From Pseudonocardia acidicola (lineage in GTDB: Bacteria; Actinomycetota; Actinomycetes; Mycobacteriales; Pseudonocardiaceae): a stretch of DNA of 64,000 nt. Positions 5,902 to 44,671 of the stretch are shown piece after piece. Both the position numbers and the translations under genes were made by a program. The stretch's first letter is position 1; the number at the start of each line of letters is the position of its first letter. Below the pieces are notes generated by a model. It was not told where the DNA came from. It saw only the letters and a program-made list of their open reading frames with translations, and ran no database searches. Where the stretch lies: positions 62,001 through 126,000 of the forward strand of contig NZ_JAAXLA010000009.1 of the NCBI RefSeq assembly GCF_012911935.1, given 5' to 3'.

Positions 5902-5916
5902 ACGAGCGTCTACGAC

Positions 5917-6240: not shown

Positions 6241-6255
6241 CGCTTGATTCTGAAA

Positions 6256-8695: not shown

Positions 8696-8697
8696 CC

Positions 8698-8742: not shown

Positions 8743-8748
8743 CAGGCC

Positions 8749-24210: not shown

Positions 24211-24223
24211 GCGGGGCCGCGCG

Positions 24224-24595
24224 GTGACCCGGCAGCGACGGGTCGCGGTGAGCAGCCCGCAGACCCGCGTGGCGCTCGCCGCCCGCCGCAACGGCCCGCT
24301 GAACCCGCCGCGGCTGACCCCGGCCGAGCTGCAGCGTGCCGAGCGCATCCGCCGGATCCAGCTGCGCCGGGCCGTGGTCGCGCTGCTCGCCGCGGGCACG
24401 TTCCTCATCGGCGTGCCGCTCGTCCTCGACGCCCTCCCGCAGCTGCAGGCCGTCCGGATCGCCGGGGCGCCGCTGCCGTGGCTCGTCGTCGCGGTGCTGC
24501 CCTACCCGACGCTCGCCGGGCTCGCCTTCTGGCAGCTGCACCGGGCGGAACAGGCCGAACGGGCTGACGACAGCGCGCCCGGGGAGCCCGGATGA
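24224..24595 (+). CDS. Small two-helix membrane protein, probable symporter partner
   Basis: A 123-residue protein with a basic head (RRNGPLNPPRLTPAELQRAERIRRIQLRR) and two membrane helices (VVALLAAGTFLIGVPLVLDAL; LPWLVVAVLPYPTLAGLAFWQL). The layout resembles the DUF485 proteins that precede acetate-type symporters. GTG at 24224-24226; upstream in-frame sequence overlaps the regulator and is not protein-like. Its stop overlaps the symporter start (ATGA at 24592-24595), so the two are made together. Confidence 0.7.
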   Translation: MTRQRRVAVSSPQTRVALAARRNGPLNPPRLTPAELQRAERIRRIQLRRAVVALLAAGTFLIGVPLVLDALPQLQAVRIAGAPLPWLVVAVLPYPTLAGLAFWQLHRAEQAERADDSAPGEPG

Positions 24596-26286: not shown

Positions 26287-26447
26287 CGCGGGCACCGTTC
26301 GGTGCCGATCGGTGCCGCTCGTCGGCTCCGGCGACCGGTCGTCGGCCGTTCGCCGCTCCCATCGGCGCTGTGCCGCGGGCCACTTTCGCGTCCCTGCCCG
26401 AGGTCCTTTCCTGTGCCCCCTGAGCACCCGCCGTGCAAGGAGGCACC

Positions 26448-26789
26448 GTGAGCACCACCGAATCCTCACCACCGGTCGACACCCATGACTGGGAGAAGGT
26501 CCGCTCCAGCGCCGAGTTCCAGGACCTGCGCCACCGGCTGCGCAGCTTCGTCTTCCCGCTGACCGGGGTGTTCCTGGCCTGGTACCTGACCTACGTGCTG
26601 CTGGCCAGCTACGCGCCGTCGTTCATGGCCACCAAGGTCGTGGGCAACATCAACGTGGGCCTGGTGTTCGGGCTGCTGCAGTTCGTCTCCACGTTCGCGA
26701 TCACGGCCTGGTACGTGCGCTACGCCGAACGCCGGCTCGACCCGCTGGCCGGCAAGATCCGCGACGAGATCCAGGGAGGATCGGCGTGA
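26448..26789 (+). CDS. DUF485 membrane protein, partner of MctC/ActP symporter
   Basis: A 113-residue DUF485 protein: soluble head with DWEKVRSSAEFQDLRHRLRSFVFP, then two membrane helices (LTGVFLAWYLTYVLLASYAP; VGLVFGLLQFVSTFAITAWYVRYA). DUF485 genes regularly precede actP/mctC. GTG at 26448 with GGAGG upstream. Its stop overlaps the symporter start (GTGA at 26786-26789). The 161 bp before it contain a small hairpin (26291-26306) after the first symporter gene; no clear promoter was seen. Confidence 0.9.
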   Translation: MSTTESSPPVDTHDWEKVRSSAEFQDLRHRLRSFVFPLTGVFLAWYLTYVLLASYAPSFMATKVVGNINVGLVFGLLQFVSTFAITAWYVRYAERRLDPLAGKIRDEIQGGSA

Positions 26790-28432
26790 GCCCCACCGTC
26801 ACGCTCGCCCAGGGGGTCCAGGGCAGCAACCCCGTCCTCAACATCACGATCTTCGGCCTGTTCGTCGTGATCACGCTGGCGATCGTGGTGCGGGTCAGCA
26901 GGCGCGCCAGCAGCGGCGCCTCCGACTTCTACACGGCCGGCGGTGGCTTCTCCGGGGCCCAGAACGGCGTCGCGATCTCCGGTGACTACCTGTCCGCGGC
27001 GTCCTTCCTCGGCATCGCCGGCGCGATCGCGCTCAACGGCTACGACGGCTTCCTGTACTCCGTCGGCTTCCTCGTCGCCTGGCTGGTCGCCCTGCTGCTC
27101 GTGGCCGAACTGCTGCGCAACACCGGCAAGTTCACCATGGGCGACGTGCTGGCCTTCCGGATGCGCCAGCGCCCGGTCCGGGCCGCCGCCGCCACGTCGA
27201 CGCTGGCGGTGTCGTTCTTCTACCTACTGGCCCAGATGGCCGGCGCCGGTGGTCTCGTCGCGCTGCTGCTCGACGTCGAGGACAAGGCACAGCAGGGCAT
27301 CGTGATCGCGGTCGTCGGCATGCTGATGATCGCCTACGTGCTGATCGGCGGCATGCGCGGCACCACCTGGGTGCAGATCATCAAGGCCGTGCTGCTGATC
27401 GTCGGCGCCGGGGTGATGACGGTCTGGGTGCTGGGCACGTTCGGGCTGAACCTGTCGTCGGTGCTCGGCGGGGCCGTCGACCGCGCCGGTCAGGCCGGCG
27501 AGGCGCTGCTCAACCCGGGCAAGCAGTACGGCAAGAACGGCGTGACCCGGCTCGACTTCATCTCACTCGCCCTCGCGCTGGTACTCGGAACCGCCGGCCT
27601 GCCGCACATCCTGATGCGCTTCTACACCGTGCCCACGGCCAAGGAGGCCCGCCGGTCGGTGGTCTGGGCGATCTGGCTGATCGGGCTGTTCTACCTGTTC
27701 ACCCTGGTGCTCGGCTACGGCGCCGGTGCGCTGGTCGGCCCGGACGCGATCAAGAAGGCGCCCGGCGGGGCCAACTCGGCCGCGCCGCTGCTCGCCTTCG
27801 AGCTCGGCGGCACGGTCCTGCTCGGCATCATCGCGGCCGTCGCGTTCGCCACGATCCTCGCGGTCGTCGCCGGCCTGACGATCACCGCCTCGGCCTCGTT
27901 CGCCCACGACGTCTACGCCAACGTGATCAAGAAGGGCCGGACGTCGTCCGACGACGAGGTCAAGGTCGCCCGGATCACCGCGGTGGTCATCGGCATCGTC
28001 GCGATCCTCGGCGGCATCCTGGCCAACGGGCAGAACATCGCCTTCCTCGTGGCGCTCGCGTTCGCCGTGGCCGCGTCGGCGAACCTGCCGACGATCCTCT
28101 ACTCGCTGTTCTGGAAGAAGTTCAACACGACCGGTGCGCTGTGGAGCATCTACGGCGGTCTGGCCATCACGCTCGTGCTGATCGTCTTCTCGCCGGTGGT
28201 GTCCGGGAAGCCGATCGACCCGGCGACCGGCCGGAGCCCGTCGATGCTGCAGGGCGTCGACTTCCACTGGTTCCCGCTCGACAACCCCGGCCTGGTCTCG
28301 ATCCCGCTGTCGTTCCTGCTGGGGTACATCGGCACCCAGGTCGGCCGGAGCCGGGCCGACGAGTCGAGGTACGCCGAGATGGAGGTGCGCTCGCTGACCG
28401 GCGCCGGTGCCGAGAAGGCCGTCGTGCACTAG
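26786..28432 (+). CDS. MctC/ActP-type cation:monocarboxylate (acetate/pyruvate/propionate) symporter
   Basis: A 548-residue SSS symporter with about 13 helices. Motifs: SDFYTAGGGFSGAQNGVAISG, GDYLSAASFLG, YDGFLYSVGFLVAWLVALLL, GTAGLPHILMRFYTVP, and a cytoplasmic end ADESRYAEMEVRSLTGAGA that ActP/MctC proteins share. Corynebacterial MctC takes up pyruvate, acetate and propionate. Coupled to the DUF485 gene. It is the second carboxylate symporter next to the LytS/LytTR pair and ends at a strong terminator. Confidence 0.92.
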   Translation: MSPTVTLAQGVQGSNPVLNITIFGLFVVITLAIVVRVSRRASSGASDFYTAGGGFSGAQNGVAISGDYLSAASFLGIAGAIALNGYDGFLYSVGFLVAWLVALLLVAELLRNTGKFTMGDVLAFRMRQRPVRAAAATSTLAVSFFYLLAQMAGAGGLVALLLDVEDKAQQGIVIAVVGMLMIAYVLIGGMRGTTWVQIIKAVLLIVGAGVMTVWVLGTFGLNLSSVLGGAVDRAGQAGEALLNPGKQYGKNGVTRLDFISLALALVLGTAGLPHILMRFYTVPTAKEARRSVVWAIWLIGLFYLFTLVLGYGAGALVGPDAIKKAPGGANSAAPLLAFELGGTVLLGIIAAVAFATILAVVAGLTITASASFAHDVYANVIKKGRTSSDDEVKVARITAVVIGIVAILGGILANGQNIAFLVALAFAVAASANLPTILYSLFWKKFNTTGALWSIYGGLAITLVLIVFSPVVSGKPIDPATGRSPSMLQGVDFHWFPLDNPGLVSIPLSFLLGYIGTQVGRSRADESRYAEMEVRSLTGAGAEKAVVH

Positions 28433-28459
28433 GGCAGCCACCCGGCCCGGTGACGGCTG

Positions 28460-28491
28460 GTGGGGTCCCGGCACCGTCGCCGGGACCCCAC
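28460..28491. terminator. Strong bidirectional terminator hairpin
   Basis: Perfect 13-bp stem GTGGGGTCCCGGC/GCCGGGACCCCAC with a 6-nt loop, between convergent mctC-like (+) and adnB-like (-) genes; its last base is the first of the adnB stop codon. TTT follows shortly after on the plus strand. Confidence 0.85.
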
Positions 28492-31400
28492 TAGCCGTTT
28501 CCGGGGGCGACCGCCTCGGGCACGGACTGCACGAGGGCACGCAGACCGCCGGCGTCGAGCAGGTCGGCGGGCCGCAGCGTCTGATCGGACCGCACGTAGT
28601 GGAACGCGGCCCGCACCTGCTCCGGGTCGCAGCCCACCAGCGCCGCCCAGGCCAGCCGGTAGGCGCCGAGCTGCACCGCGAGCGCGGGCAGCCGCGACGC
28701 CTCGGGCGGCGGCCCGGTCTTCCAGTCGACCACGGTCCAGCCGCCGTCGGGGTCGGCGAACACCGCGTCCATCCGGCCGCGCACCGCGATCCCGCCGATC
28801 ACGGTCTCGAACGGCACCTCTACCTCGACCGGGCGCCGGTCCGCCCACCCCGAGGCCAGGAACGCGTCCTGCAGTTCGACGAGCGCGTCGTCACCGGCCG
28901 CGGCGTCGTCGGCGGCGCCGGGCAACTCGTCGAGGTCGAGCAGCTGCGCGGCGCCGAAGCGCTGCTCGAGCCAGGCGTGGAACGCGGTGCCGCGGCGGGC
29001 GTGCGGGCTCGGCGGCAGCGGCAGCGGGCGGCGCAGCCGGGCGGCCAGCGCCTCCGCGTCGGCCGCGAGCTCGACGAGCTGGCTGACCGAGAACTGCGGC
29101 GGCAGCGTCACCGACGGTCGCGCCCCGGCCGCGGCCCGCTCGGCCAGCAGCACGTCGACGTCGGCCGCCCACCCCTCCGGATCGGGATCGGCCGGGGGCA
29201 GCAGGTCCGGCGGCCCGTCGTCGCCGGGTGCCTCGTCCTGGACGGTCCCCAGCAGGTCGAGCTGCGCCCCGGGCTCGTGCGCGGGCGGCTCGTCGGGTCC
29301 CATCGCCAGCAGGTCGAGCTGCCCACCCGGCTCGGCCCGATCGCCCCGCTCGCGCTCGGCCTGCGCCGCCGCGCGGGCCGCCTTCAGGTCGCGCAGCGCC
29401 GCCCGCACGAGATCCGCGCCGGCGTGCACCGCTTCCGACCGGGCCCCCAACGGGTCGACCGGCCACAGCGCGGTGACCGGATCGGCGGTGGCCGGGTTGG
29501 TGTCCTCGGGTTCGGGCGCCTCGGCCCACGCCTCGATCGGGAACGGCGGGCCGATCTCCCCCGTCTCGATGCCGCTCTCGCCGCCGAGCGCGTCACGGAT
29601 CTCGGTGAGGAACTCCGACGGCTCCTTCGGCTTCTCCCCCGCCGCCCCCCAGCGGTGCCCGGACACCAGCAGTACGTGCTCGGAGCGGGTGAGCGCGACG
29701 TAGAACAGCCGCCGCTCCTCGGTCAGCCGGCGCGCGTCGAGGGCGGCATCGTGTTCCTTGACGGCCTCCTCGAGCTGTTTGCGGTCACCACCCGGCGGCA
29801 GGTACAGCCCGGGCAGGTCGTCGGCGTCACCGCGCAGCGGCACCGGGAGCGCGGACGGGTCGGTCAGCCAGCTCCCGCCGATCTTGCGGCCCGGGAAGAC
29901 CTGCGACACCAGGTGCGGGACCGCGACGATCTCCCACTCCAGGCCCTTCGCCGCGTGCACGGTGAGCACCTGCACGCGGTCGCGCGCCACCTCCACCTCG
30001 CCCGGGGTGAGCCCGTCCTCGGCGCGCTCGGCCGTCTCCAGGTAGTCGAGCAGCGCGGGCAACGAGGGCACCTCGGCGCCGGCCGCGAACTCGGCGACGA
30101 CGTCGGCGAACGCGTCGAGGTGCGCGCGCCCCACCGGGCCCGGCCGGGCCGCGGTCTCGGCGTCGAGCAGCAGCACCCGCTCGGCGTCGGCGACGAGGTC
30201 GGTGAGCGGGGCCGAGGCCCGGGCGCGCAGCCACGTCAGCTCGCGGGCCAGCCGGCGGATCCGCTCGAAGCCCGCCCGCGAGTACCTCTCGGCCGGCCCC
30301 GGGTCGTCGAGCGCGTCGACGAGCCCGGCCTGCTCGGCCTGCTCGCCGGGCAGCGCCCCCAGGGCCAGCTGCGCCGGGCTGAGCGGCCCGGGCCCGGTGC
30401 CGGGCAGCGGCGGGACGAGCTCACGGGCCCGCTGCCACAGCGCCGCCAGGTCGGCCACCCCGAGGCGCCACCGCGCCCCGGTGAGCAGCCGGACCGCGGA
30501 CGGCCCGGCCAGCGGGTCGGCGACGACACGCAGCGCGCTGACCAGGTCGCGCACCTCCGGGGTGTCGAGCAGCCCGCCCAGGCCAACCACCTCGACCGGC
30601 AGCCCGCGCGCCCGTAGCGCGGCGGCGATCGGGTCCATGTCGGCGCGCCTGCGGACCAGTACCGCCGAGGTCGGCAGCTCCGCGCCTGCCTCCTCCGCCC
30701 GGCGCCAGCGCGCGGCGATGGCATCGGCCATCCAGGCGATCTCGGTGCCGACGTCGGGCAGCAGCGCGACCCGCACATCGCCGGCCCCCGCCTTCGGGCC
30801 CGCCCGCAGCTCCCCGACCGCGACCGCACCGGGGGCGGTGCGCAGCGGCTCGGACACCGCGTTGGCCAGCGCCAGCACCTCCGGCGGGTTGCGGAAGCTG
30901 GTGAGCAGCCCGTACTCGTCGGCGGGCGCGCCGCCGGGCCCCGGGAAGTCGGTCCGGAACCGGGCCAGGTTGCCGGCGCTGGCCCCGCGCCAGCCGTAGA
31001 TCGACTGGCAGGGGTCGCCGACCGCGGTCACCGACAGCGGCTCCGCGCGCGGCACCGCGCCCGGCACCGCGCCGAACAGCGCCCGCAGCAGCACCCGCTG
31101 GGAATGCCCGGTGTCCTGGTACTCGTCGAGCAGCACCGCCCGGAAGGCCCCCCGCTCGATCTCGCCGACCTCCGGATGTCCCTCGGCGACCCGCGCCGCG
31201 ATCGCCATCTGATCGGCGAAGTCGATCGCGCGTTCGGCCCGCTTGCGCGCCGCGAACGCCTCGACCAGGGGGAGCAGCTCGACCCGCATCCGCTGGGTGT
31301 CGATCCACTTCTTGTAGGTCTGCGACGGTTCGGCGCGCTGCCCCTTGCCGCGCGGGGCGTCGGCCAGCATCGCGATCATCCGGACCGCGAGGCGGTGCAC

Positions 31401-31970
31401 GGCCTCCGGCTCGACGAGATGCTCGCCGAGCTCGCCGGCCAGCGCCAGCAGGTAGCTGGTGACGGTGGCCGGCACCCTGTCGATCTCGAGGTCCTCGGCC
31501 CAGGTGGAGACCACGCGGTGCGCCAACTGCCAGGCCGCGGTCTCGCCGAGCAGCCGGGCGGCGGGCTCCGCGGGCAGCCGCAGCGCGTGCTCGCCGACCA
31601 ACCGGCCGGCATAGGCGTGGTAGGTCGAGATCGTCGGCTCGCCGGCCAGGACCGCGGCGCGGCGCTGCCCGCCCGGATCGAGCTCGTCGAGCAGCGGGGA
31701 TCCGGCGAGCCGGCGCAGCCGCGAGCGCACCCGCACGCCGAGCTGCTGGGCCGCCTTGCGGGTGAAGGTCAGGCCGAGAACCTGCTCCGGAAGCACCTGC
31801 CCGGTGGCCACGAGCCACACCACGCGGGCGGCCATCGTCTCGGTCTTGCCCGCGCCCGCGCCGGCCACCACCAGCGCGGGCCGTGCGGGCGCAGCGATCA
31901 CCGCCGCCTGCTCGTCGGTCGGCGGCGGCAACCCGAGGGCTGCGGCCAGGGCCGCCGGGGTCAGCTGCAC
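28491..31970 (-). CDS. adnB: AdnB-type helicase-nuclease subunit (double-strand break resection)
   Basis: A 1159-residue UvrD-like motor with C-terminal RecB-like nuclease. Walker A AGAGAGKTET lies near residue 42, motif II VLLDEYQDTGHSQRVLL near 285, motif III YGWRGASAGNL, and motif VI YVALTRSEHVLLVSGHRWG near 755. The nuclease core has GRMDAVFADPDGG and VVDWKTG (near 1085) followed by QLGAYRLAW, so the metal site looks intact. No terminal Cys cluster. AdnAB resects broken DNA ends in mycobacteria. GTG start. In M. tuberculosis the two adn genes are adjacent; here an opposite-strand gene separates them, so this subunit needs its own promoter. Subunit name is by order. Confidence 0.88.
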   Translation of the reverse strand: MQLTPAALAAALGLPPPTDEQAAVIAAPARPALVVAGAGAGKTETMAARVVWLVATGQVLPEQVLGLTFTRKAAQQLGVRVRSRLRRLAGSPLLDELDPGGQRRAAVLAGEPTISTYHAYAGRLVGEHALRLPAEPAARLLGETAAWQLAHRVVSTWAEDLEIDRVPATVTSYLLALAGELGEHLVEPEAVHRLAVRMIAMLADAPRGKGQRAEPSQTYKKWIDTQRMRVELLPLVEAFAARKRAERAIDFADQMAIAARVAEGHPEVGEIERGAFRAVLLDEYQDTGHSQRVLLRALFGAVPGAVPRAEPLSVTAVGDPCQSIYGWRGASAGNLARFRTDFPGPGGAPADEYGLLTSFRNPPEVLALANAVSEPLRTAPGAVAVGELRAGPKAGAGDVRVALLPDVGTEIAWMADAIAARWRRAEEAGAELPTSAVLVRRRADMDPIAAALRARGLPVEVVGLGGLLDTPEVRDLVSALRVVADPLAGPSAVRLLTGARWRLGVADLAALWQRARELVPPLPGTGPGPLSPAQLALGALPGEQAEQAGLVDALDDPGPAERYSRAGFERIRRLARELTWLRARASAPLTDLVADAERVLLLDAETAARPGPVGRAHLDAFADVVAEFAAGAEVPSLPALLDYLETAERAEDGLTPGEVEVARDRVQVLTVHAAKGLEWEIVAVPHLVSQVFPGRKIGGSWLTDPSALPVPLRGDADDLPGLYLPPGGDRKQLEEAVKEHDAALDARRLTEERRLFYVALTRSEHVLLVSGHRWGAAGEKPKEPSEFLTEIRDALGGESGIETGEIGPPFPIEAWAEAPEPEDTNPATADPVTALWPVDPLGARSEAVHAGADLVRAALRDLKAARAAAQAERERGDRAEPGGQLDLLAMGPDEPPAHEPGAQLDLLGTVQDEAPGDDGPPDLLPPADPDPEGWAADVDVLLAERAAAGARPSVTLPPQFSVSQLVELAADAEALAARLRRPLPLPPSPHARRGTAFHAWLEQRFGAAQLLDLDELPGAADDAAAGDDALVELQDAFLASGWADRRPVEVEVPFETVIGGIAVRGRMDAVFADPDGGWTVVDWKTGPPPEASRLPALAVQLGAYRLAWAALVGCDPEQVRAAFHYVRSDQTLRPADLLDAGGLRALVQSVPEAVAPGNG

Positions 31971-32194
31971 ACCAGCGTTCTACCCCACGGCTCCGACAGC
32001 GCCGGCCCCGCCGCCCGGACCGTTCGGGGCGGCGGCGGCGAGGACCGCGAGGTGGGGTTGTCCCCACCCGCGGAGGAGGGTCACCTCATCCAACTCTGGG
32101 GGCTGCCCGATCGCCTCCCGGTGCGCCGCACAGCAGCCTTCTCCCCAACGCACATCACGCCGCACCACGGCGCCGACGAAGTGAGGGGAACGCC

Positions 32195-33178
32195 GTGCCC
32201 ATCATTTCCGTTCCCGAGGCCTTCAACGAGGACGGGCTGTTCGTCGACCTTCAGCCGGTCTTCGGGCAGTCGCTGTTCCTGAAGTGCGAGGGCTTCAACT
32301 TCGCCGGCTCGGTCAAGCTCAAAGCCGCCAACGAGATGGTTGCGGCCGCCGAGCGGGAGGGCGTCCTGCGGCCCGGGGCGGTCCTGATCGAATCCTCGTC
32401 GGGCAACCTGGGCGTGGCGCTGAGCACGATCGCGGCGAGCAGGGGCTACCAGTTCCTGTGCGTGACCGACTCCCGATGCAACCTGGCGACTCGGCTGCTG
32501 ATGGAGGCGCTGGGCGCCCAGGTGCACGTCATCACCGAGCCCGATCCGGTCGGCGGCCTGCTCGGCGCGCGGATAAACCACATCCGCGCCCTGTGCGCCT
32601 CCGACGACCGGTACGTGTGGCTCAACCAGTACACCAATCCCAACGCCTGGAAGGCGCACTACCGCACCACCGCGCCGGCGATCGCCCGCCAGTTCCCCGA
32701 GCTGGACGTGCTGTTCCTCGGAGCCGGCACCACCGGCACACTGATGGGCTGCGCCCGCTACTTCCAGCAGTGGCACCCGTCGGTGCGGGTGGTCGCCGTC
32801 GACAGCGTCGGGTCGGTGAGCTTCGGGGGCCCGCCTGGCCGCCGGATGATTCCCGGTCTGGGCATGGGTGTCCGCCCGCCGCTGCTCGACGATTCCTACA
32901 TCGACGAAGTGATCATGGTGGACGAGGCCGACGCCATCCGCACCTGCCACCGCCTGGCCCGACGCGGATTCCTGTTCGGCGGCTCCACCGGCACCGTCGT
33001 CAGCGGCGCGATGGGCTGGCTGGCCGAGCACGAGGGGCAGGGGCTGACCGCGGTGGCCCTCGCCCCGGACCTGGGCGAGCGCTACCTCGACACCATCTAC
33101 CAGTCCAACTGGGTTGAGGATCTCTACGGCCCGGACGTGCTCGCCGCGAACGAGCGCGTCGCCGCCCAGGCGGCCTGA
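32195..33178 (+). CDS. SbnA-like PLP-dependent enzyme (cysteine synthase fold)
   Basis: A 327-residue fold-type II PLP enzyme close in motifs to SbnA, which makes N-(2-amino-2-carboxyethyl)-L-glutamate, precursor of 2,3-diaminopropionate. PLP lysine in NFAGSVKLKAANEM (near 42), phosphate-neighbour loop ESSSGNLGVALS, glycine loop GAGTTGTLMGCARYF and GGSTGTVVSGAM near the end. GTG at 32195 with GAGGGG upstream. The usual partner SbnB, siderophore or antibiotic genes are absent nearby. It lies alone and inverted between adnB and adnA, so it looks inserted. A cysteine-synthase role cannot be excluded. Confidence 0.82.
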   Translation: MPIISVPEAFNEDGLFVDLQPVFGQSLFLKCEGFNFAGSVKLKAANEMVAAAEREGVLRPGAVLIESSSGNLGVALSTIAASRGYQFLCVTDSRCNLATRLLMEALGAQVHVITEPDPVGGLLGARINHIRALCASDDRYVWLNQYTNPNAWKAHYRTTAPAIARQFPELDVLFLGAGTTGTLMGCARYFQQWHPSVRVVAVDSVGSVSFGGPPGRRMIPGLGMGVRPPLLDDSYIDEVIMVDEADAIRTCHRLARRGFLFGGSTGTVVSGAMGWLAEHEGQGLTAVALAPDLGERYLDTIYQSNWVEDLYGPDVLAANERVAAQAA

Positions 33179-33251
33179 CCCGCAGCCGGCCGGCCCGTGT
33201 CCCGCTCACCCGCGATGTGCACGCGGCCGCCCGGTGCCACGCCGAGACGGC

Positions 33252-36200
33252 CTAGTCGACGGTCACCGGACGGCCGGATTCCACCGCCGGGCAGCTGGTC
33301 CGGACCGGGCACCGCTCACAGTCCGGCCCCACCCGTGCGAGAAACGCGGCGCCCGCGGTCTCCTCGGCGCAGTGCCGCACGGTCTCCCGCCACCGGTCCA
33401 GGCCGGCCGCGTCCAGCGGGGGCTGGGCCGGCTCCTTCGGTTGGCCACCGGCCTTGCGGTCGGCGAGGTAGACCAGCCGGGCCCCGCCGGGCGCGACGCC
33501 GGTGTCGAGCAGCTCGCCGAACGCGCCGAGTGCCGCGGCGAGCTGGTAGACGGCCAACTGGGGGTGCTCGGCGGCCTGCCGGGCCGTCACCGCGGTCTTG
33601 CCGGTCTTGATGTCGACGACCACCGGCCGGCCCTGGGCATCGACCTCCAGCCGGTCGACCCGGCCGCGCAGCCGCAGCCAGGGGCCGCCCTTGCGGGCGG
33701 CGCCGTCCGGGTCGGGGCCGTCGACGCCGTCCGGGTCGGGGCCGGCCAGGTCGAGCTGCACCGGTTGCTCGACGGCCACCAGCTGCAGGCCCTCGGCCCG
33801 GCTGGAGCGCACCCAGCCGTCGAACGCGGCCAGCATCGCGCGCACCCGGACCAGCTCCCGGCGGCCGAACCAGGGCGCGCCGGTGTCGAGCCGCGACCAC
33901 GCCGAGCGCAGTGCGGTCTCCAGCTCCGCGGTGTCGGCGCCGGCCGCGCTGGCCTGCACCAGGGCGTGCACCAGCGACCCGGTGACCGCGGCGAGCGCGC
34001 CGACCTCACCGCCGCCGTGCCGTTCCAGCACCCAGCGCAGCGGGCACGCGACGATCTTCTCCACGTCCGACGGGGACACCGGGATGACCTCCCCGGGCAC
34101 CCGCAGCGGCGCCTCGGTGGACGGCGGGGCGACGCCGTACCAGTCGTCGGGGTGGGCGCCGGGGACACCGTCGGCGGCGAGCCTGGCCAGCTGCGTCGCG
34201 GCGCGCCGGCGCCGCTGCGCCCGGGCCGGGTCGCCGTTGTCGGGTTCGCACACCGCACGGCGCAGCTCGCCGACCAGTTCGGCCAGCACGAGCGCCCGGC
34301 CGGGCCGGTGCACCACGCGGCCCTCGGCCGGGCCCGCGGGCAGCGGGTCGAGCTCGTCGAGGAACCGGGAGGGCTGCTCGTCCTCCCCCTGCACCGCGCT
34401 CACCAGCAGCTTCTGCTTCGCCCGGGTGCACGCGACGTAGAACAACCGCCGTTCCTCGGCCAGCAGCGGCGCCACCCGGGACACGGTGTCGGCGGCCGCA
34501 CCGGGCTCGGCGACGCCCGCCATCAGGTCGACGAGCCGCTCGGTGCCCAGCAGGCTGCCGCGCAGCCGCAGGTCGGGCCAGCTGCCCTCCTGGACGCCCG
34601 GCACCGCGACGACCTGCCACTCCCGGCCGCGCGCCGCGTGCGCGGTGAGCAGCGAGACCGCCTCGCCGCGGGGCGCCCGCGGAGCCAGCGTGTCGCCCGG
34701 GAGCTGCTGGTCGGTGAGGTACTCGGTGAACCCGGCGACATCGGCGCCCGGCAGCCGGTCGGTGTAGCGGGCCGCGGCGTCGAACAGCGCGAGAACGGCG
34801 TCGAGGTCACGGTCGGCGGCCGCGCCGACCGGCCCGCCCCGGGCGCTCGCCTCGCTCCAGCGCTGCGCGAGGCCGGTCTGCTGCCAGACCCGCCAGAGCA
34901 CCTCTTCGACGGTCTGCCCGTCGCGCGCCGCCGCCGCCGCCGCGGCCAGCAGGGCGCCGACCTTGCGCAGCGGCGCGGTCTCGTTCGCCGGCAGCGCGGC
35001 CAGCGGGTCGGGGTGGCCGTGCGCAGCCGAGCGCAGCGCCTCGACCAGCAGCGGGTCGCTGCCGGAGCGCTCGGCGTCGGCGGCCAGGCCCGCCGCGGTT
35101 CCGGTGACCGCAGCGGCTCCGTTCGTCGCAGCGGTGCCGTCAGCGGGCGGAGCTCCGTGGGCCGGCCCGGCTCCGGCGGATCCGGCCGCCTCGGCCCCGG
35201 CGCCGCCGGGCACCGGCCGATCGGGTGCGCCCGCCCCGCCCCGCTGCCCGGCCGCGTGCAGCCGCAGCAGCCCGCGGCGCAACCGGCGCATCCGCATGGG
35301 GTCGCCCGATCCCAGTGCCGAGGTGAGCAGCGCGGCGGCCGCGTCGGCGTCGATCTCCCCGGGCCGGACGGCGTAGCGCAGCACCATCAGCAGGGGCAGC
35401 ACCGCGGGCTGACGGGCCAGCGGCAGCTCGTCGGGCGGCGCGGAGATGGGCACTCCGGCAGCCACCAGCGCACGGCGCAGCGCGGGCAGCGACCGGCGGG
35501 TGGAGCGGGCCAGCACGGCCATCTCCGACCAGGGCACCCCGTCGTTGAGGTGTGCCCGGCGCAGCTGGTCGGCGATCCAGCCGGCCTCGCTGGCCGTCGA
35601 GGAGAAGACCCTGACCAGCACCGAACCCGGTTCCGGTGCGTCGGCGGGGACGTCGCGCGGCGGCGCGACGCGCTCCCGGCCCTCGCCGGCGCCGGGCAAC
35701 CGGGCCACCAGCCGGGCCGCGGCGGCACGCAGTTCGTCGGCGCTGCGGTGGTCGATGGTGAGCAGCGCCGTCTCCGCATCGACGGCGCGCAGCCCGCTCG
35801 GATCGGCACCGCGGAAGTTGAGCACCGCCTGGTCGGGGTCACCGGCCAGCAGGGTCGTCTCCGCGGTCAGCCCGAGCACCCGGACGAGCTCCATCTGCTG
35901 CGGGTCGAGGTCCTGCGCGTCGTCGACCAGCAGGTGCCGGACGCGTTCGCGCTCGGCGGCGAGCAGCTCCGGATCCGACGCCAGCGCGTCGAGCGCCGCG
36001 GCGACGAGCTCCGCGGAGTCGAGCGCGGGCGCGGTGGCCTGCGGCGCCCCCCGGCCCGCGGCCCCGCGCAACAGGATGACGTGCTCGTAGCTGCGGAAGA
36101 AGCGGCCCGCGGCCGTCCACTCCGGAACATCGTGCCGGTGGCCCAGCTCGGTGAGCTCGTCGGGACCGAGACCGCGCTCGGCGGCGCGCAGCAACAGTTC

Positions 36201-37632: not shown

Positions 37633-37917
37633 ATGGACGAGGAGACGGTCGAGCGGGTGCGCGAGGTGGTCGCGGCCATCCCGCCCGGGCAGACGCTGAG
37701 CTACGGCGAGGTGGCGGCGCGGGCGGGGCTGCGCTCGCCACGGCTGGTCGGCCGGATCCTCGCCGAGGACGGCCACGACCTGCCCTGGCACCGGGTGCTG
37801 CGCGCCGACGGGACGTGCGCGCCGCACATCGCGGCCGAGCAGTCCGCTCGGCTGCGGGCCGAGGGGGTGCTGCTGGTCGGCGGCCGGTTGCCCGCGGAGC
37901 GGCGCCGCCGGGGCTGA
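37633..37917 (+). CDS. Alkyltransferase-like protein (ATL), DNA-lesion binder without active Cys
   Basis: A 94-residue protein of the O6-alkylguanine-DNA methyltransferase fold. The active-site motif PCHRV is PWHRV (residues 51-55 approx.), so Trp replaces the alkyl-accepting Cys. This defines ATL proteins, which bind O6-alkylguanine and flag it for nucleotide excision repair. The helix-turn-helix part GQTLSYGEVAARAGLRSPRLVGRIL is intact. ATG at 37633. Rv3204 position. Its 3' flank abuts a truncated sirohydrochlorin chelatase on the other strand, so a deletion ended close to this gene. Confidence 0.9.
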   Translation: MDEETVERVREVVAAIPPGQTLSYGEVAARAGLRSPRLVGRILAEDGHDLPWHRVLRADGTCAPHIAAEQSARLRAEGVLLVGGRLPAERRRRG

Positions 37918-37950
37918 CCAGCCGGGCGGGCGCGCGGTCAGCGGAGCTGC

Positions 37951-38133
37951 GACGACCGTACGGTCCAGGCCCGCCGCCACCTCGGCGACGGCCGGGCGCC
38001 GGACGTCGAGGTAGCCGATCCGCACCTCGACGGCCACCTGCACGGCTGCGGACGCCGCGATCTGCTGCACGACCTCGTCGGCCGCGTCGGACCGGCTGCC
38101 GTGCGCCACCAGTACCAGCGGAGGTCCGGTCAC
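37951..38133 (-). pseudogene. Truncated sirohydrochlorin chelatase (CbiX-like), 5' remnant
   Basis: About 61 codons of a CbiX/SirB-type chelatase: VLVAHGSRSDAADEVVQQIA at the start (metal-binding His in VAHGS) and RIGYLDVRRPAVAEVAAGL. Family members are normally well over 100, often about 240, residues. After LDRTVV the similarity stops and the frame runs on antisense through the alkyltransferase-like gene to 37606. The GTG start overlaps the preceding gene stop (GTGA at 38130-38133), so it was once the last, coupled gene of the nitrite/siroheme operon. Confidence 0.75.
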
Positions 38134-39332
38134 GGGGCGCCCCCGTGCACGCAGTGCCCCCCGACCGGCACCGGACCGGCCGCCGGGTCCAGGGCCAGCC
38201 GGTAGCCGCGTTTGACGACGGTCTGCACCAGCTTCGGCTCGCCGAGGGCGGCGCGCAGCCGGGCCACCGCGGTCTCCACCGCATGCTCGTCGTCCCCGCC
38301 GCCGGGCAGCGTGCCGAGCAGTTCGGCCCGCGACACCACGCGCCCGGGCCGTCGCGCCAGCACGCGCAGCAGCGCCATCCCGGTCGGCGGCACCGTCCGC
38401 AGCGCTCCGTCGACCAGCACGGCGTGCCCGCGCAGCTCGAGCCGGTGACCGGCCACCGGTAGGCGTCGCGCCCGGGCCGGCGCCTCGGCCTCCAGAGCAC
38501 GGACCATCGCCCCGAGCCGGGAGCGCTGCGGCTGCACGGTGGGGACGTCGACGGCCTCCAGCGGTGCCGCGGTCACCGGCCCGACGCACAGCGCCAGCAC
38601 CGGGCCGCGCAGCGCCGTGAGCAGTTCCTCCCGCACCCCGCGCTCGCCGGCCCGCGCCAGCAGGCTGGCCGCGGCGGGCGCGCTGGTGAAGGCGAGGATG
38701 TCGATGCCACCGGCCAGCACGGTGTCGGTGAGCCGGTCCATCGGGCCGAGGTCGGCCGGCGGGACCCACCGGTACACCGGCACCTCGACGACCTCGGCGC
38801 CGGCCAGGGTGAGTGCCTCGACCATGTCCGGCAGCGGCTCCCCGTGCAGCTGGACGGCGATGCGCCGGCCCTCGACACCCGCGTCGAGCAGGTACTCGAG
38901 CACCTCGGCGGATGATTCCGACGGCGGTGACCACGCATCGGTCAGTCCGGACGCCCGGATCGCGCCGCGCGCCTTCGGTCCGCGGGCCAGCAGCGTCCCG
39001 CTGCCGAGCGCGGCGAGCAGGTCCTCGCCCATCCCCCAGCCCTCGGCGGCCTCGATCCAGCCGCGGAAGCCGATGCCCGTGGTGGCGACCGTGATGTCCG
39101 GGGGCCGGGCGACGAGCGCCCGGGTACTCGCCAGCAGCTCCGTGTCGTCGGCCAGCGGCACGATCCGCAACGTCGGGCCGTGCTGCACGGTGGCTCCGCG
39201 GCGCTCGAGCATGGTGCCCAGCTCCTCGGCCCGGCGGGCGGCGGTGATGCCGACGGTGAAGCCGGCCAGCGGCGGCACGGCGGCGGGATCGGAGTTCTGG
39301 TCCACGAGAGGCTCCACGGCTTGCATTGTCAC
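38130..39332 (-). CDS. Uroporphyrinogen-III synthase fused to winged-helix DNA-binding domain
   Basis: A 400-residue fusion. Residues about 20-275 are a HemD-like synthase (VGITAARRAEELGTMLERRGA; ILAFTSAPAAASLL; ALCVGPVTAAPLEA). Residues about 305-385 are an OmpR-type winged helix (TGMALLRVLARRPGRVVSRAELLG; AVETAVARLRAALGEPKLVQTVVKRGYRL). Such fusions accompany nirBD in actinobacteria and may both make siroheme precursor and regulate. GTG at 39330-39332 overlaps the nirD stop; an ATG two codons later is an alternative. It appears intact although nirB and the chelatase are broken. Confidence 0.9.
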   Translation of the reverse strand: MTMQAVEPLVDQNSDPAAVPPLAGFTVGITAARRAEELGTMLERRGATVQHGPTLRIVPLADDTELLASTRALVARPPDITVATTGIGFRGWIEAAEGWGMGEDLLAALGSGTLLARGPKARGAIRASGLTDAWSPPSESSAEVLEYLLDAGVEGRRIAVQLHGEPLPDMVEALTLAGAEVVEVPVYRWVPPADLGPMDRLTDTVLAGGIDILAFTSAPAAASLLARAGERGVREELLTALRGPVLALCVGPVTAAPLEAVDVPTVQPQRSRLGAMVRALEAEAPARARRLPVAGHRLELRGHAVLVDGALRTVPPTGMALLRVLARRPGRVVSRAELLGTLPGGGDDEHAVETAVARLRAALGEPKLVQTVVKRGYRLALDPAAGPVPVGGHCVHGGAP

Positions 39333-39685
39333 GGGAGTCCGACCTGCAGGCACCCGTCGGTCAGCCGGAGCGGATAGCAGGGCACCGCCGTGGCCGGGTT
39401 CCCGGGGTCGTCCAGGCAGCGGCCGTCGAGCAGGCTGAACACCTGCTTGTAGACCGGTGACGCGACGGTCGGCACCCCGCCGCGGTCGCCGACGATCCCC
39501 CGGGACAGCACCGCGGCCCCCGAGAACGGGTCGATGTTGCCGATCGCGTGCACCGCGCCGTCGTGGGTCCGGAAGATCGCGATCTGCCGATCGCCGAGCA
39601 GCGCCGCGACCCCACGCTCGGGCTGCAGCCGGTCGTAGCGACACACCGTCTCCCACCGGGTCACCGTTTCCACCACGGCCGTCAT
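39329..39685 (-). CDS. nirD: NirD, small subunit of assimilatory nitrite reductase
   Basis: A 118-residue Rieske-fold NirD (WETVCRYDRLQPERGVAALLGDRQIAIFR; PFSGAAVLSRGIVGDRGG; VASPVYKQVFSLLDGRCLDD). As usual for NirD, the Rieske Cys/His cluster ligands are missing. ATG overlaps the nirB-fragment stop (ATGA at 39682-39685) and its stop overlaps the HemD fusion. NirD works only with NirB, which here lacks its N-terminal two thirds, so this gene probably has no functional partner in this locus. Confidence 0.9.
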   Translation of the reverse strand: MTAVVETVTRWETVCRYDRLQPERGVAALLGDRQIAIFRTHDGAVHAIGNIDPFSGAAVLSRGIVGDRGGVPTVASPVYKQVFSLLDGRCLDDPGNPATAVPCYPLRLTDGCLQVGLP

Positions 39686-40452
39686 CGCTGCACCTGCGGG
39701 AGTCCGATGAGCATCGGTTCACGGGCCGGCACCGGCTGGCCCCGCTCCTCGACGAAGGTGATCGTCGGGTCGGGGGTGTCCGGCGCGTTGACGAACGAGA
39801 CGAACCGGCTGAGTTTCTCCTCGTCCTCGAGAACCCCGCGCCACTCGTCGGCGTAGTCGGCGACGTGCGCCTCCATGGCCGCCTCCAGATCCGCGCAGAT
39901 CCCGAGCGAGTCGTCGACGATCACCGCGCGCAGGTGGTCGAGGCCGCCCTCCATGGCCTCGATCCACGGCGCGGTGCGCTGCAGCCGGTCGGCCGTACGG
40001 ATGTAGAACATCAGGAACCGGTCGATGATCTTCACCAGCGTCTCGGTGTCCACGTCGGAGACGAGCAGCTCGGCGTGCCGCGGGGTGAACCCGCCGTTGC
40101 CGTCGACGTAGAGGTTCCAGCCGTTCTCGGTGGCGATCACGCCGAAGTCCTTCGCCCGCGCCTCGGCGCACTCCCGGGCGCAGCCCGAGACCCCGGACTT
40201 GATCTTGTGTGGGCTGCGCAGGCCCCGGTAGCGCAGCTCCAGCGCGACGGCCAGACCGACCGAGTCCTGCACGCCGTAGCGGCACCAGGTGGTGCCGACG
40301 CACGACTTCACCGTGCGCAGCGACTTGCCGTAGGCGTGGCCCGACTCGAACCCGGCGTCGACGAGGCGGCGCCAGATCGCCGGCAGCTGCTCGACCCGGG
40401 CACCGAACATGTCGATCCGCTGCCCGCCGGTGATCTTGCTGTAGAGCCCGAA
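39682..40452 (-). pseudogene. nirB: nirB 3' fragment (siroheme/4Fe-4S domain of nitrite reductase large subunit)
   Basis: About 256 codons matching the C-terminal third of NirB: GLYSKITGGQRIDMFGARVE, the cluster ligands CVGTTWC and CARECAEA, then FVNAPDTPDPTITFVEERGQ. Full NirB is about 830-850 residues; the FAD/NAD, BFD-type [2Fe-2S] and first ferredoxin-like domains are absent. Upstream, without a gap, is the 5' part of narK in another frame, so a deletion joined the two near 40450. GTG codons at 40473-40476 could restart translation of about 264 residues, but that product could not take electrons from NADH. Confidence 0.88.
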
Positions 40453-41608
40453 GCAACTCGGCCGTCGCGTCACCACCCGCCGCGATCGCCGTCCGCGCCT
40501 TGCCCTGGAAGATCGCCGGGATCATCTTGTGGGTCGATCCGTTGCCCAGCCCGGACAGCACGAACAGCAGCACGAACCCGGCCACGAACAGCGGCAGCGA
40601 GTCGGCCGCGGAGGCGGCCAGCACGATCCCGGCGCCCGCGCCCATCCCGATGAAGTTCAGGCAGGTCACCCTGGCGCCGCCGTAGGCGTCGGCGAGCTTG
40701 CCGCCGTAGGGGCGGATGATCGAACCGAGCAGCGGACCGATGAACGTCACCGCGGCCGCCTGCAGCGGGGTGCGGCCGAACTGGTTCTGCAGCACCAGGC
40801 CGAACGCGAAGCTGTAGCCGATGAAGGAGCCGAACGTTCCGATGTAGAGCAACGACATGATCCAGGTCTGGCGCTCCCGGAGCGACTCGGCGAAGGCGCC
40901 GGTGTCGCCCTGCACCGAGGAGATGTTGTCCATGTACGTCGCGGCGAGCACGGCGGCCACGATGATCAGCGGGATGTAGATGCCGAGCAGGATTCGCGGC
41001 GAGCCGGCCCCCGCGGTCGCGATGACCAGCAACGCCATCAGCTGCACGACCGGGACGCCCAGGTTGCCGCCGCCCGCGTTGAGCCCCAGGGCCCAGCCCT
41101 TGCGCGACTCCGGGAAGAAGGAGTTGATGTTCGTCATCGACGAGGCGAAGTTGCCGCCGCCGACACCCGCGATCGCCGCCACGATCATGAAGGTCGTGTA
41201 CGACGTCTCCGGCTCCATGACGATCAGGGCGAGGATCGTCGGGACCAGCAGCAGCGACGCGCTGATGATCGTCCAGTTGCGGCCGCCGAACCGGGCCACC
41301 GCGAACGTGTAGGGCAGTCGCGATACCGAACCGACCAGCGTCGGCACCGCGACCAGGAAGAACTTGCCCGCCGCGTCGATGCCGTACTGCGGCCCCATGA
41401 ACAGGACCATCACCGACCACAGCGTCCAGATGGAGAAGCCGATGTGCTCCGACAGGATCGAGAACCACAGGTTGCGATTGGCGATCCGCTTGCCGGTGCG
41501 CTCCCAGAAGCCCGGGTCCTCGGGTTCCCAGTGGTCGATCCACCGGCCCGGCAGCACGCCCCTGCCACCGTGCGCCGAGTCCGATTCCGCCGTGGGCGTC
41601 ATGGTCAT
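40450..41608 (-). pseudogene. narK: narK 5' fragment (nitrate/nitrite MFS transporter), truncated by deletion
   Basis: About 385 codons of a NarK-type transporter: WIDHWEPEDPGFWERTGKRIANRNLWFSI at the N-terminus (in full at 41460-41550), nitrate signatures GVGGGNFASSMTNINSFFP and LGLNAGGGNLGVPVVQL, then GNGSTHKMIPAIF near 357. Similarity ends near AIAAGGDATAEL; the last helices are gone and the frame continues out of phase through the nirB fragment to 39719. ATG with GGGAGGA at 41606-41608. Loss of the last two or so helices should abolish transport. Confidence 0.85.
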
Positions 41609-41738
41609 GCCGGTCCTCCCGAATGGTCACCCGTTGCCAGGTGCCTGACGGTAGGAACGGCGCATTACCCGCTCATGGCCCCGTGTGACGGCGAGGAAAA
41701 CCGGTTCTCAACCTCGGCGGGCCGAGACTGTGAGCCCG

Positions 41739-42587
41739 CTACAGCCGCGCGGTGACCAACCCGGCTGCCCGCTCCAGCCCGGCGAGCGTGCGCACCGAGG
41801 CCTCCGGGTGCTGGGCGTGCAGCGCCAGCCGGTAGAGCACGGCCCGCAGCAGGGCCTGCGGCCACTCGTCGAGGTGCGCCCAGCGGTCCAGCAGGCTCTC
41901 CTCGGCCCCGCCCCAGGCCAGCGCGTCGACGACGATCACCGCGGCCGCCCACTCGGCCGGCCGCCAGAACGGCACCAGGTCGAGCACGGCCGGGGAGCCC
42001 TCCTCGTCGAACAGCACCGCGCCGAACAGCTCCCCGTGCACGACCTGCGGCGCGGTCCGGACCGGGCGGCGGTGCGCGGCCAGCTCGGTGAACAGGTCAC
42101 CGCCGTAGGCCGGGTCGAGGGCGAGCCTGCGCTCCCCGAAAGCCGCCGCGACCGAGCGGGACAACAGGTCGTCGCGGTCGTCGAGCAGGCGCGGGCGCAG
42201 CACGGTCGCCGTCGCGGCGTGCAGCTTCATCGCGGTGGCGACGACCTCGTGGTGGCGCGGCTCCGCGGTGCCGGGCAGGAACCGGCAGGCAGCCCAGCCG
42301 GCGACGACCCAGCGCCCGTCCGAGGACCGCAGCGGCCGGGCCAGCCGGACCCCGTCGACCTCCAGGCCGTCCAGCACCCCGGCCGACCACGCGGCGACCG
42401 CGTTGTCCGACACCGGACGGATCAGCGCGTCACCGCACTGCCACGCCTGCTGGCCGGCCCACGAGACGGGCCGCGGGTCCTGGTCCGGCACACCGAACGC
42501 GATCCGGACATGCTGCGGCAGGGCATCCGCGGCTCCGGACGGGGCCGTACCGCCCGGGCCGATCGGGAGTGCGGGAGCTGCGGTCAC
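41739..42587 (-). CDS. TIGR02569-type actinobacterial protein (kinase-like fold)
   Basis: A protein of about 282 residues like the actinobacterial TIGR02569 family (Rv3205c position), distantly like aminoglycoside/choline phosphotransferases: WQCGDALIRPVSDNAVAAWSAGVL, VHGELFGAVLFDEEGSPAVLDLVPFWRPAEWAAAV resembles the HGDLxxxN and DxD region, but with HGE and LDL variants. Start is uncertain: TTG 42665 overlaps the preceding stop (TTGA), GTG 42587 gives the usual family length. Upstream neighbour is the zinc-finger membrane protein. Function unknown. Confidence 0.7.
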   Translation of the reverse strand: MTAAPALPIGPGGTAPSGAADALPQHVRIAFGVPDQDPRPVSWAGQQAWQCGDALIRPVSDNAVAAWSAGVLDGLEVDGVRLARPLRSSDGRWVVAGWAACRFLPGTAEPRHHEVVATAMKLHAATATVLRPRLLDDRDDLLSRSVAAAFGERRLALDPAYGGDLFTELAAHRRPVRTAPQVVHGELFGAVLFDEEGSPAVLDLVPFWRPAEWAAAVIVVDALAWGGAEESLLDRWAHLDEWPQALLRAVLYRLALHAQHPEASVRTLAGLERAAGLVTARL

Positions 42588-42661
42588 GGTCAGGCACGCT
42601 ACCGGCGCGATCCGGTCGATCGTGGCTGCCACGCGGGAACGACACGATACCGGTCGAGCGG

Positions 42662-44671
42662 TCAACCCGCCGAGCCGGCCGTCACGATGTCACGGGCGGG
42701 AGGACCGCCGCTGCCGTCGCCGGCCGAACTGTTCGACGCACCCGAATCGCTGCCGTTGGTCTGTTCACCGGTGTTGTCGCCGCGTTGCACCGGAGACGAC
42801 GCCGAGGTGCCCGGCGTGTCCGTGGCGTCGGCAGAACTGCGCCCGGACCCCGGCGACGAGCTGGAGCTCGACGCCGTCGCGTTTGACGAGCCAGAACCGG
42901 CCTCGGCCATCCGGGCGGCCGCCTCCCGGTCGGCCTGCCGCAATCCGGCGTCGGCGTAGGGGGCGGCCCAGGCCGGTGTCATGGCCCGGACCGCCGGGCC
43001 GGCGACCGCGCTGGCGATCCCCTCCGAGCCCGATGGACGGGGAGCCTGCGTCCCGGCCGAACCGGTGGCCGCGGGCGCCCGCCGGGTGTCGTTCTGCTCC
43101 GCGGCCGTACCGCTGCGCGACCCGCTCGCCGTACCGCCGCTCGACCCACCGTCCGGCGCCGCTGCGGGACTCGACCGGGGGGTGGCCCGCTCGCCGGTCC
43201 GGCTCGCCGAGTCGGCGCCGCGCGCCTCCCGGCGGTCGTCCGCCGCAGCGGAACCGCCGCCGCGGTTGCCCGCGCGCCCGGAGCCGCCACCGGATTCGCG
43301 GCCCGGCAGCGCGTCGGTGACCGGGCCGGTCACGGCCCCCACCGTGTCCGCGGCCGGCCCGCGGGAGGGCTTGTCGGCGGCCTTGCCACCCGCCCGGCCG
43401 CCCCGTGCGCCGGACGCGGCCGCATGCTTGCTGGGCTCGTCCTCGGCCGTCTCGCCGGCGTCGACCCCGGTCCCGCCGCCCACCACACCACCCACCGCAC
43501 CGACCACGGCACCGACCGGCCCGCGATCACCGGACTCCCCCGCGCCGCGTTGGCGGCGCTCCTCGCGGGTTTCGTCGCGCGGGCCCCGCGGGTCGGGCGG
43601 GCCGCTGGTTCCGACCTCGGCGCGCGGACGGGTGTCCTCCTCGTCGCGGCCGCCGATGGCCTCGGGGCGCCGGGTGGTGGCCGGCCCGGTCGGCGCGCCG
43701 CCGCTCCCGGGGTCCTTGCTCAGGGCCAGCACCGCGTCGCTGACCTCGGTCGTGCGCCGGCTGTCCTCGGGCAGTGCGGTGCGCCGCGCGCTCTGCACGC
43801 CGTCGGCGAGGCTGCGCAACTCCTCGCGCTTGGCGTCGCGCTGCCGGATCCGGATGTCGCGCTGCTCGTTCAGCGCGGCGATGGCGGCGGCCTGCTCCGG
43901 GGAGCGCCGGCCCTCCGGCGGCAGGTCGGCGAGCGCCTTCTCGATCGCCGCCAGATGCTGCTCGGCGAGCTTGAGCTCGTCGGCGGTCTGCTCGAGCGAC
44001 CGGTAGGCGGCGAGCTGGGACTGCAGGGTCGCGCGCTGGCGTTCGAGCAGCGCTTTGCGCTCGCGCAGCGCACGGACCGGGGCGGGCGGGCCGCCCACAC
44101 GGCGGCTGTCCGGGACCCGGCTCCAGGTCTCCTCGGTCTGCGCGATCGTGTCGAGCTGCCGGTTGACCGAGGACAGCGCCACCTGCGCGCGGGCCGCCCA
44201 CTGCTCCTCGGTGGCCTCCTCCGGGGCGGCCCGGACGGGAGTCTCGGCGGGCGCGGGCGACTCGGAGGCGGTGATCGAGTAGCCGCCGACCAGCAGCCCG
44301 GCGGCGCCGAGCACGGCGAGGGCGCGCCGGCGCCGGGGCTGGTCGCCGGGCCGTGGGCCGCGCAGCCGGGGCACCGCACGGCGGCGGGCGCGTGGCGGCG
44401 GGCCGGGCGGCGACGCCGCCGGTGCCGGTCGGTGCACGCCCGCCGCGGACCGGACCATCGACTCCTCGGGCTCGCGCAGCCAGGGCAGGGCTTCGGCGAG
44501 GCGGGCGTCGCCCTCGGACTGCGCGGAGGCCCGCCGGGCCTGCCGGGCCGCGGACCGGTGCGCCGCGGTGCAGTACCGCCGCTCCGGCCGGCCCGGGATG
44601 ATCTCGATCACCACGTCACACCCGGGCAGGGCACATCGTCTCGCGTCGTCGTCCACCACTGCGACCCCCAT
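42662..44671 (-). CDS. Zinc-finger, single-pass membrane protein with coiled coil and long disordered tail
   Basis: A 669-residue protein I do not recognise. Residues 10-45 hold a zinc-finger-like C-x4-C-x15-C-x3-H (CALPGC...RRYCTAAH) followed by a basic helix. A basic stretch precedes one membrane helix (ALAVLGAAGLLVGGYSI, about 125-142). Residues 160-300 are charged and helical with coiled-coil character (LRERKALLERQRATLQSQLAAYRSLEQ). The last 350 residues are Gly/Ser/Ala-rich low complexity. Start ATG 44671, or GTG 44695. The TIGR02569 gene may start within its stop. Not in the mycobacterial order I recall. Confidence 0.7.
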   Translation of the reverse strand: MGVAVVDDDARRCALPGCDVVIEIIPGRPERRYCTAAHRSAARQARRASAQSEGDARLAEALPWLREPEESMVRSAAGVHRPAPAASPPGPPPRARRRAVPRLRGPRPGDQPRRRRALAVLGAAGLLVGGYSITASESPAPAETPVRAAPEEATEEQWAARAQVALSSVNRQLDTIAQTEETWSRVPDSRRVGGPPAPVRALRERKALLERQRATLQSQLAAYRSLEQTADELKLAEQHLAAIEKALADLPPEGRRSPEQAAAIAALNEQRDIRIRQRDAKREELRSLADGVQSARRTALPEDSRRTTEVSDAVLALSKDPGSGGAPTGPATTRRPEAIGGRDEEDTRPRAEVGTSGPPDPRGPRDETREERRQRGAGESGDRGPVGAVVGAVGGVVGGGTGVDAGETAEDEPSKHAAASGARGGRAGGKAADKPSRGPAADTVGAVTGPVTDALPGRESGGGSGRAGNRGGGSAAADDRREARGADSASRTGERATPRSSPAAAPDGGSSGGTASGSRSGTAAEQNDTRRAPAATGSAGTQAPRPSGSEGIASAVAGPAVRAMTPAWAAPYADAGLRQADREAAARMAEAGSGSSNATASSSSSSPGSGRSSADATDTPGTSASSPVQRGDNTGEQTNGSDSGASNSSAGDGSGGPPARDIVTAGSAG

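Follow-up and report, generated by a model that had tools for sequence, protein, structure and literature searches.

A broken nitrate/nitrite assimilation operon with an intact nnaR regulator gene in Pseudonocardia acidicola: probable recent loss by two deletions

The 64,000-nucleotide stretch of Pseudonocardia acidicola DNA analysed here (G000:C165:62001-126000, the window) carries on its minus strand the remains of a nitrate/nitrite assimilation operon, in which narK runs directly into the end of nirB and the chelatase gene cbiX is cut short, and in which nirD and the regulator gene nnaR are whole. We consider it highly probable that two genuine and recent deletions ended nitrate/nitrite assimilation in this lineage and that the intact nnaR is likely still used for something else. 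The pathway has very probably been lost, and recently; the host is likely no longer able to convert nitrate or nitrite to ammonium, and the cell would now be using ammonium or organic nitrogen. On the minus strand the order is kin42 (42665-41739), cut narK, nirB end, nirD, nnaR and cut cbiX, followed on the plus strand by an alkyltransferase-like gene and a hydrolase gene. The host assembly comprises 7.16 Mb in 165 contigs (99.81% complete, 5.37% contaminated).

The narK piece (40455..41608, minus strand), delimited by its frame, NCBIfam profiles and blastn, holds the first ~380-385 codons of a nitrate/nitrite transporter. It matches TIGR00886 only to position 354 of 368, and the intact NarK of the relative G016 reaches 368; both score below the cut-off of 311.7 (287.2 for the window, 299.9 for G016), so that the cut-off is not decisive. 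A complete transporter of the major facilitator superfamily has 12 helices; here the last ones are gone, and the piece is not a complete protein of this class. The best 120 matches in the narK search are 446-490 residues long. The narK frame itself continues without a stop as far as 39719 (629 codons), crossing the nirB remnant out of frame. The nirB remnant (39682..40453, minus strand; profiles and blastn) is the C-terminal 256 codons, matching TIGR02374 only at 586-793 of 794 and PF01077 (NIR_SIR) with 82.1 bits; the open frame has 279 residues, with a GTG at 40476. It keeps only the siroheme/4Fe-4S NIR_SIR domain and lacks the N-terminal part for flavin adenine dinucleotide and reduced nicotinamide adenine dinucleotide (FAD/NADH) as well as the BFD-like [2Fe-2S] and NIR_SIR_ferr domains. 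The remaining siroheme domain would not be expected to work without the FAD/NADH part. The small-subunit gene nirD (39329..39685, minus strand) is intact, as an earlier interpretation made without database searches (the sequence-only reading) had stated: its 118-residue product has a full-length Rieske-like domain, with 101 bits for TIGR02378 against a cut-off of 74.65. Amino-acid distances relative to other taxa are 1.06 for narK, 0.96 for nirB, 0.91 for nirD and 0.90 for nnaR, and 0.94, 1.04 and 1.02 for controls; the remnants are not evolving faster than the genes of relatives. Because they show no extra change, the loss appears to be recent.

At junction 1 (40444..40456, minus strand) the narK frame (41608 to 40455) and the nirB frame (40453 to 39682) abut with no gap. 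The region was compared by blastn with 30 stretches from relatives (29 genomes, since the stretches L030 and L044 appear to be one contig). Similarity to nirB begins at window position 40453 in all 30, and similarity to narK stops between 40446 and 40508 in the 25 stretches where it was found; little or nothing is inserted at the join. The sequence-only reading had narK passing at about codon 385, without a gap, into the C-terminal third of nirB. The join and the cut stand, the latter now given as ~380-385 codons. It had also held that the end of narK, about 580 codons of nirB and any gene once between them were missing, and had proposed a comparison with intact operons. The partial coverage of TIGR00886 and TIGR02374 bears this out, the first 587 nirB codons being gone, and so does the comparison: both genes are present in 34 of 40 relatives' stretches, with the same two points 2100-9981 base pairs (bp) apart, versus 28 bp in the window. 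In 25 of the 34 the interval includes a nasC-type nitrate reductase gene, most often accompanied by one for a NirB-like flavoprotein; nine stretches give no nasC match there. In G016 the interval holds the narK end, a 686-residue nasC-type nitrate reductase, a 517-residue NirB-like flavoprotein and the first ~588 nirB codons. Because the nearest intact neighbours of the window on the tree (G016, G019, G022, G075, G078) carry nasC, deletion 1 was likely ~5.7 kilobases (kb) long, with a minimum of ~2 kb. It would have run from narK codon ~383 to nirB codon ~588, most likely taking nasC and the flavoprotein gene too. Of 11 relatives compared around CTTCGGGCTC at the join, five have 7-8 of 10 bases alike between the two parents and six have 2-4 of 10. 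A short resemblance, possibly of 7-10 bp, is weak evidence of slippage, and slippage or illegitimate joining at such a resemblance may possibly have been the route; this likeness is patchy, however, and two of the six low-likeness relatives are visibly out of register in the alignment.

The second lesion lies at the far end of the operon. The cbiX piece (37950..38133, minus strand), a sirohydrochlorin chelatase gene identified by profile match and relatives' lengths, retains ~61 of ~230 codons, in agreement with the earlier statement that it is recognisable for 61 codons only. It matches PF01903 at 1-55 of 106 with 21.8 bits against a cut-off of 22, and thus does not span a full chelatase domain. 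Among 21 relatives' stretches looked at, all 16 with both cbiX and the alkyltransferase-like gene have a cbiX of 225-243 residues. Junction 2 was placed by blastn only to an interval (37918..37955, minus strand), which reaches from where cbiX similarity ends to the stop codon of the alkyltransferase-like gene. Deletion 2 would have taken the last ~165 cbiX codons and the spacer before that gene.

The missing parts were searched for in the whole 7.16-Mb assembly. The first 587 nirB codons were not found there, the only matches being flavoproteins at 28-38%; nor was the end of narK, for which only the truncated copy and a 27% match were returned; nor was nasC, whose best match was 36% in a 987-residue frame (31 of 42 candidates scored). 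The search for a second nirB that the sequence-only reading had called for thus returned none, and no other nitrite reductase was recognised in the assembly. Siroheme-type proteins elsewhere are only a 557-residue enzyme encoded next to cysDN-like genes and a CobG in a cobalamin cluster. The 557-residue NIR_SIR protein (contig C132) reaches neither the ferredoxin-nitrite reductase nor the sulfite reductase cut-off of NCBIfam; because its neighbours are cysDN-like, transport and chelatase genes, it is assigned to sulfate assimilation, and a role in nitrite reduction is unlikely.

A genuinely short NirB in relatives would have spoken for a normal variant, but the genus yielded none. Among the 52 genomes of the genus that carry this nirB, a NirB of fewer than 646 residues occurs only in the window genome (279-residue open frame), G002 (307) and G029 (470), and a short NirB as a normal genus variant was rejected on this count. 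In G002 (L025) the frame is broken immediately ahead of the siroheme domain, where a run of C differs in length by one base; this may be a homopolymer read error in a 2-contig assembly. The assembly of G029 (L039) appears rich in frameshifts: its UvrD-like gene is matched in four pieces, and its nasC and nirB only in part. A protein search with the 256-residue nirB piece gave 4678 matches of 0.55-1.75 times the query length. The three best named matches to this piece are Pseudonocardia proteins. Many of the 120 listed are on contigs of 1-5 kb or named 'partial', and a few are on long contigs. Short NirB-type proteins outside the genus on long contigs, namely P0002 (378 residues, 87 kb), P0031 (377 residues, 25 kb) and P0076 (418 residues, 9.6 Mb), may be other truncated nirB genes or frame errors.

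The same operon has been lost elsewhere in the genus. By third codon positions G032 is closest to the window in nnaR (first of 52), kin42 (38) and the alkyltransferase-like gene (47); the ranking for the hydrolase gene was not used, G032 being absent there despite a 66-codon match. G032 is also the sister of the window on a 53-row quick tree (Shimodaira-Hasegawa-like approximate likelihood ratio test, SH-aLRT, 88; not a starred branch). Its locus consists of kin42, a nirD relic of ~100 bp, nnaR, the start of a cbiX whose frame is broken, and the alkyltransferase-like gene. The nirD relic has 5 indels and is identical at 71 of 91 aligned bases; against shuffles it has z 6.6 (0/500), and the cbiX relic z 3.7 (2/500). 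This layout indicates that narK, nirB and a working cbiX were lost in G032 by a different deletion; the cbiX break may have a shared origin with that in the window. In G085 (3 contigs) there is a clean loss from the narK start to mid-nirD, with flanks at 91-96% DNA identity to the intact G025. In G034 (L226) nnaR precedes the alkyltransferase-like gene, and nirD, narK and a full cbiX are absent from the locus. G003, G014, G018 and G067 have narK-nnaR-cbiX at the locus without nirBD (cbiX runs off the contig in G067); elsewhere they carry a NirB of a second type (40-42% identity), as though a replacement of the enzyme had taken place. On the tree the presence of the genus nirB requires 5 changes, 3 of them forced by starred branches, with G002 and G029 scored as present and the window as lost.

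The regulator gene (38130..39326, minus strand; profile match and synteny) encodes a single protein of 398 residues with a HemD fold (PF02602, HEM4, 113.9 bits) and an OmpR-type winged helix (PF00486, Trans_reg_C, 51.8 bits), and is thus of the NnaR type. It had been called intact before, which holds with the start corrected to 39326. By synteny it is encoded with narK/nirBD, and a separate HemD lies elsewhere, two HEM4 matches being present in 10 of 10 genomes; retention of nnaR as the sole HemD was rejected, the second HEM4 protein occurring in all 10 genomes tested. Within the genus nnaR was detected in 59 of 62 genomes (with partial matches in G020, G028 and G077), namely in 7 of the 10 that lack the genus nirB and in all 52 that have it (the window, G002 and G029 are counted among the latter). 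Three of these seven (G032, G034, G085), all with an open nnaR frame, gave no NirB at all: the search returned only other flavoproteins and, in G032 and G034, also weak siroheme-domain matches at 26-29%. Neither nnaR nor NirB was detected in G006, which is 72% complete.

Tentatively, and at somewhat less than an even chance, the NnaR of Pseudonocardia may have a second job independent of nitrite reductase, as the surrounding genes have been deleted repeatedly and nnaR is whole in at least two further NirB-less lineages. A competing explanation, which comes close to an even chance and is compatible with the two deletions, is that the loss is real and nnaR is a mere left-over, not yet decayed and jobless without nitrite reductase. 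NnaR is known mainly for nitrate/nitrite genes as described in PMC11162112 and PMC10704036, and several observations weigh on the same side. The losses in the window and in G085 are recent, too recent to show selection for nnaR; and G082 and G083 lack both nnaR and NirB. Among the genomes without NirB, G034 is only 89% complete, and the ATG that starts nnaR in the window is ATA in G032, where translation would have to begin at a GTG 9 bases further on. Evidence from G032 speaks against a left-over: its nirD relic has 5 indels in ~100 bp versus 3 in ~1170 bp of nnaR, whose frame is open, and between the G032 and window nnaR genes third positions differ three to five times as much as positions 1 and 2 do. 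The nnaR frame is likewise open in G034, with no nirD relic above shuffles beside it.

Binding sites were also considered. The published NnaR boxes are CTCAC[A/C]-16N-[T/G]GTGAG (PMC6277429), and the consensus used was taken from PMC6277429 and PMC11162112. In the operon promoter region (41609..41738, minus strand), which was aligned with the narK promoters of relatives and judged by eye, there is a putative NnaR-box-like pair, CTCACA-16N-GTTGAG, at 41707-41734; its right half carries an extra T, as in the intact G022, and counterparts are seen in the narK promoters of several relatives. Transcription from this kept promoter could still extend into nirD and nnaR, aided by a narK frame that has no stop until shortly before nirD. 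A box scan with one spacing in 8 genomes matched the operon promoter in G009, G016 and G085, and not in G000 or in the intact G025 and G033. Matches versus reversed control were 11/3 in G000, 11/1 in G033, 7/0 in G025 and 5-9 versus 2-14 in the others, a palindromic site counting twice. The 6 sites matched in G000 all fall within sequence that is coding or probably so, and no second target emerged there. This favours the left-over explanation, although the scan is insensitive, as its failure at the promoters of G025 and G033 indicates. Three of them are in frames with the motif of [2Fe-2S] subunits of the xanthine/CO-dehydrogenase type (one recognised by a Pfam match, one by a flavoprotein neighbour and one by the motif only), and the other 3 are inside long frames. 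None of the 3 sites in G032 resembles a G000 site region; one falls within a frame, another lies between two frames and the last has no strong frame nearby.

An assembly error, in which a low-coverage or chimeric join skipped the narK-nirB block and the end of cbiX, appears improbable. The genome is a draft in 165 contigs, the remnants are undecayed, as is also expected from an assembly error, and a short overlap is possible at junction 1. However, a search of the 99.8% complete assembly did not recover the skipped parts elsewhere, and two separate skips in one operon would be needed. In the scan of the window, 49 conserved G016 frames were compared with three relatives and 11 were flagged: nirB and nasC, five lying outside the aligned span, three complete genes that G080 lacks too, and a 51-residue case on the strand opposite a conserved frame. 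No other truncated gene was thus seen in the 64 kb, within the limited sensitivity of a scan that missed the narK and cbiX cuts and so could miss other lesions. What tips the balance towards real deletions is the sister lineage G032, in which a different deletion has likewise left this locus with neither narK/nirB nor a working cbiX. Against this stands a defect in the G032 assembly: its contig end carries a ~65-bp exact inverted copy (L221:9172-9240 and 11229-11293, C248) of the nirD-relic/nnaR start, located inside the hydrolase gene, the rest of which begins contig C256; this is likely a fold-back assembly fault. The sequence-only reading had offered recent loss by two lesions or an assembly collapse. 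The former is favoured by the failure to find the missing parts or another nitrite reductase in the assembly, the lack of remnant decay and a sister without narK/nirB at this locus; the latter fares poorly, with only 7-10 bp of possible end likeness. That the joined frames make a working new protein, whether a siroheme domain on its own or a transporter with a junk extension, is very improbable despite the open 629-codon narK frame and the GTG in the nirB frame, as none of the best 120 of 7998 matches covers more than 61% of the 629-residue frame and the junction was not seen elsewhere among them, the nirB piece is without the NIR_SIR_ferr part and all redox donor domains, and long chance frames are expected at 69-77% G+C.

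The locus is framed by conserved markers: upstream of narK by kin42 (41739..42665, minus strand; synteny), which has no Pfam match at E 0.01, and downstream by the intact alkyltransferase-like gene (37633..37917, plus strand; DNA_binding_1 profile match and synteny). Elsewhere in the window, ~6.3 kb at 22178-28534 have no blastn match of more than 150 bp in the syntenic G016, G033, G080 and G009, with conserved flanks; AT skew is about -0.2 from 24 to 28 kb within this stretch. At 31949-33262, ~1.3 kb separate the UvrD-like gene from the next conserved block, versus 28 bp in G016 and 144 bp in G009.

The nas operon of Amycolatopsis mediterranei also holds a nitrate reductase, a transporter and NirBD. 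This operon, nasACKBDEF, is described as a nitrate-assimilation operon under GlnR in which NasE is the NnaR homologue (PMC10704036); in comparison, the window is without everything from the narK end to the last third of nirB and without most of cbiX. The gene order narK-nirB-nirD-nnaR-chelatase is that of narK3-nirBD-nnaR-sirB in Mycobacterium abscessus, an operon used for nitrate/nitrite (PMC11162112), whereas the operon in the window is broken. In Streptomyces coelicolor NnaR is described as activating narK, nirB, nirA and nasA (PMC10704036). The NnaR proteins of S. coelicolor and Mycobacterium smegmatis likewise combine HemD and DNA-binding domains and are linked to narK and nirB (PMC6277429), but the window NnaR has no working nitrite reductase to control. 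A dead nitrate-assimilation gene beside a living nnaR is known from M. smegmatis, where nasA is a pseudogene (msmeg_4206; PMC6277429), but NirBD is intact and used there. According to the same source, the effects of NnaR in M. smegmatis extend to a gene for a truncated haemoglobin and to two operons that contain phenylhydantoinase genes, and in Streptomyces the HemD part is without HemD activity (PMC6277429); the activating signal and the function of the HemD domain are described as open (PMC11162112). Among the titles and abstract openings listed for NnaR, nitrate-assimilation loss and Pseudonocardia, no published loss of nirBD with nnaR kept was found.

The loss of such an operon is of an ordinary kind; the oddity is a regulator that outlives the enzyme it is known to switch on. 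One genus shows the operon intact, half-broken and cleaned out, and in the window it is caught between intact and gone. The genomes with nnaR in which no NirB was found constitute a natural experiment on NnaR, a place in which a second role may be found or excluded, and it is the survival of nnaR where no NirB is found that merits testing.

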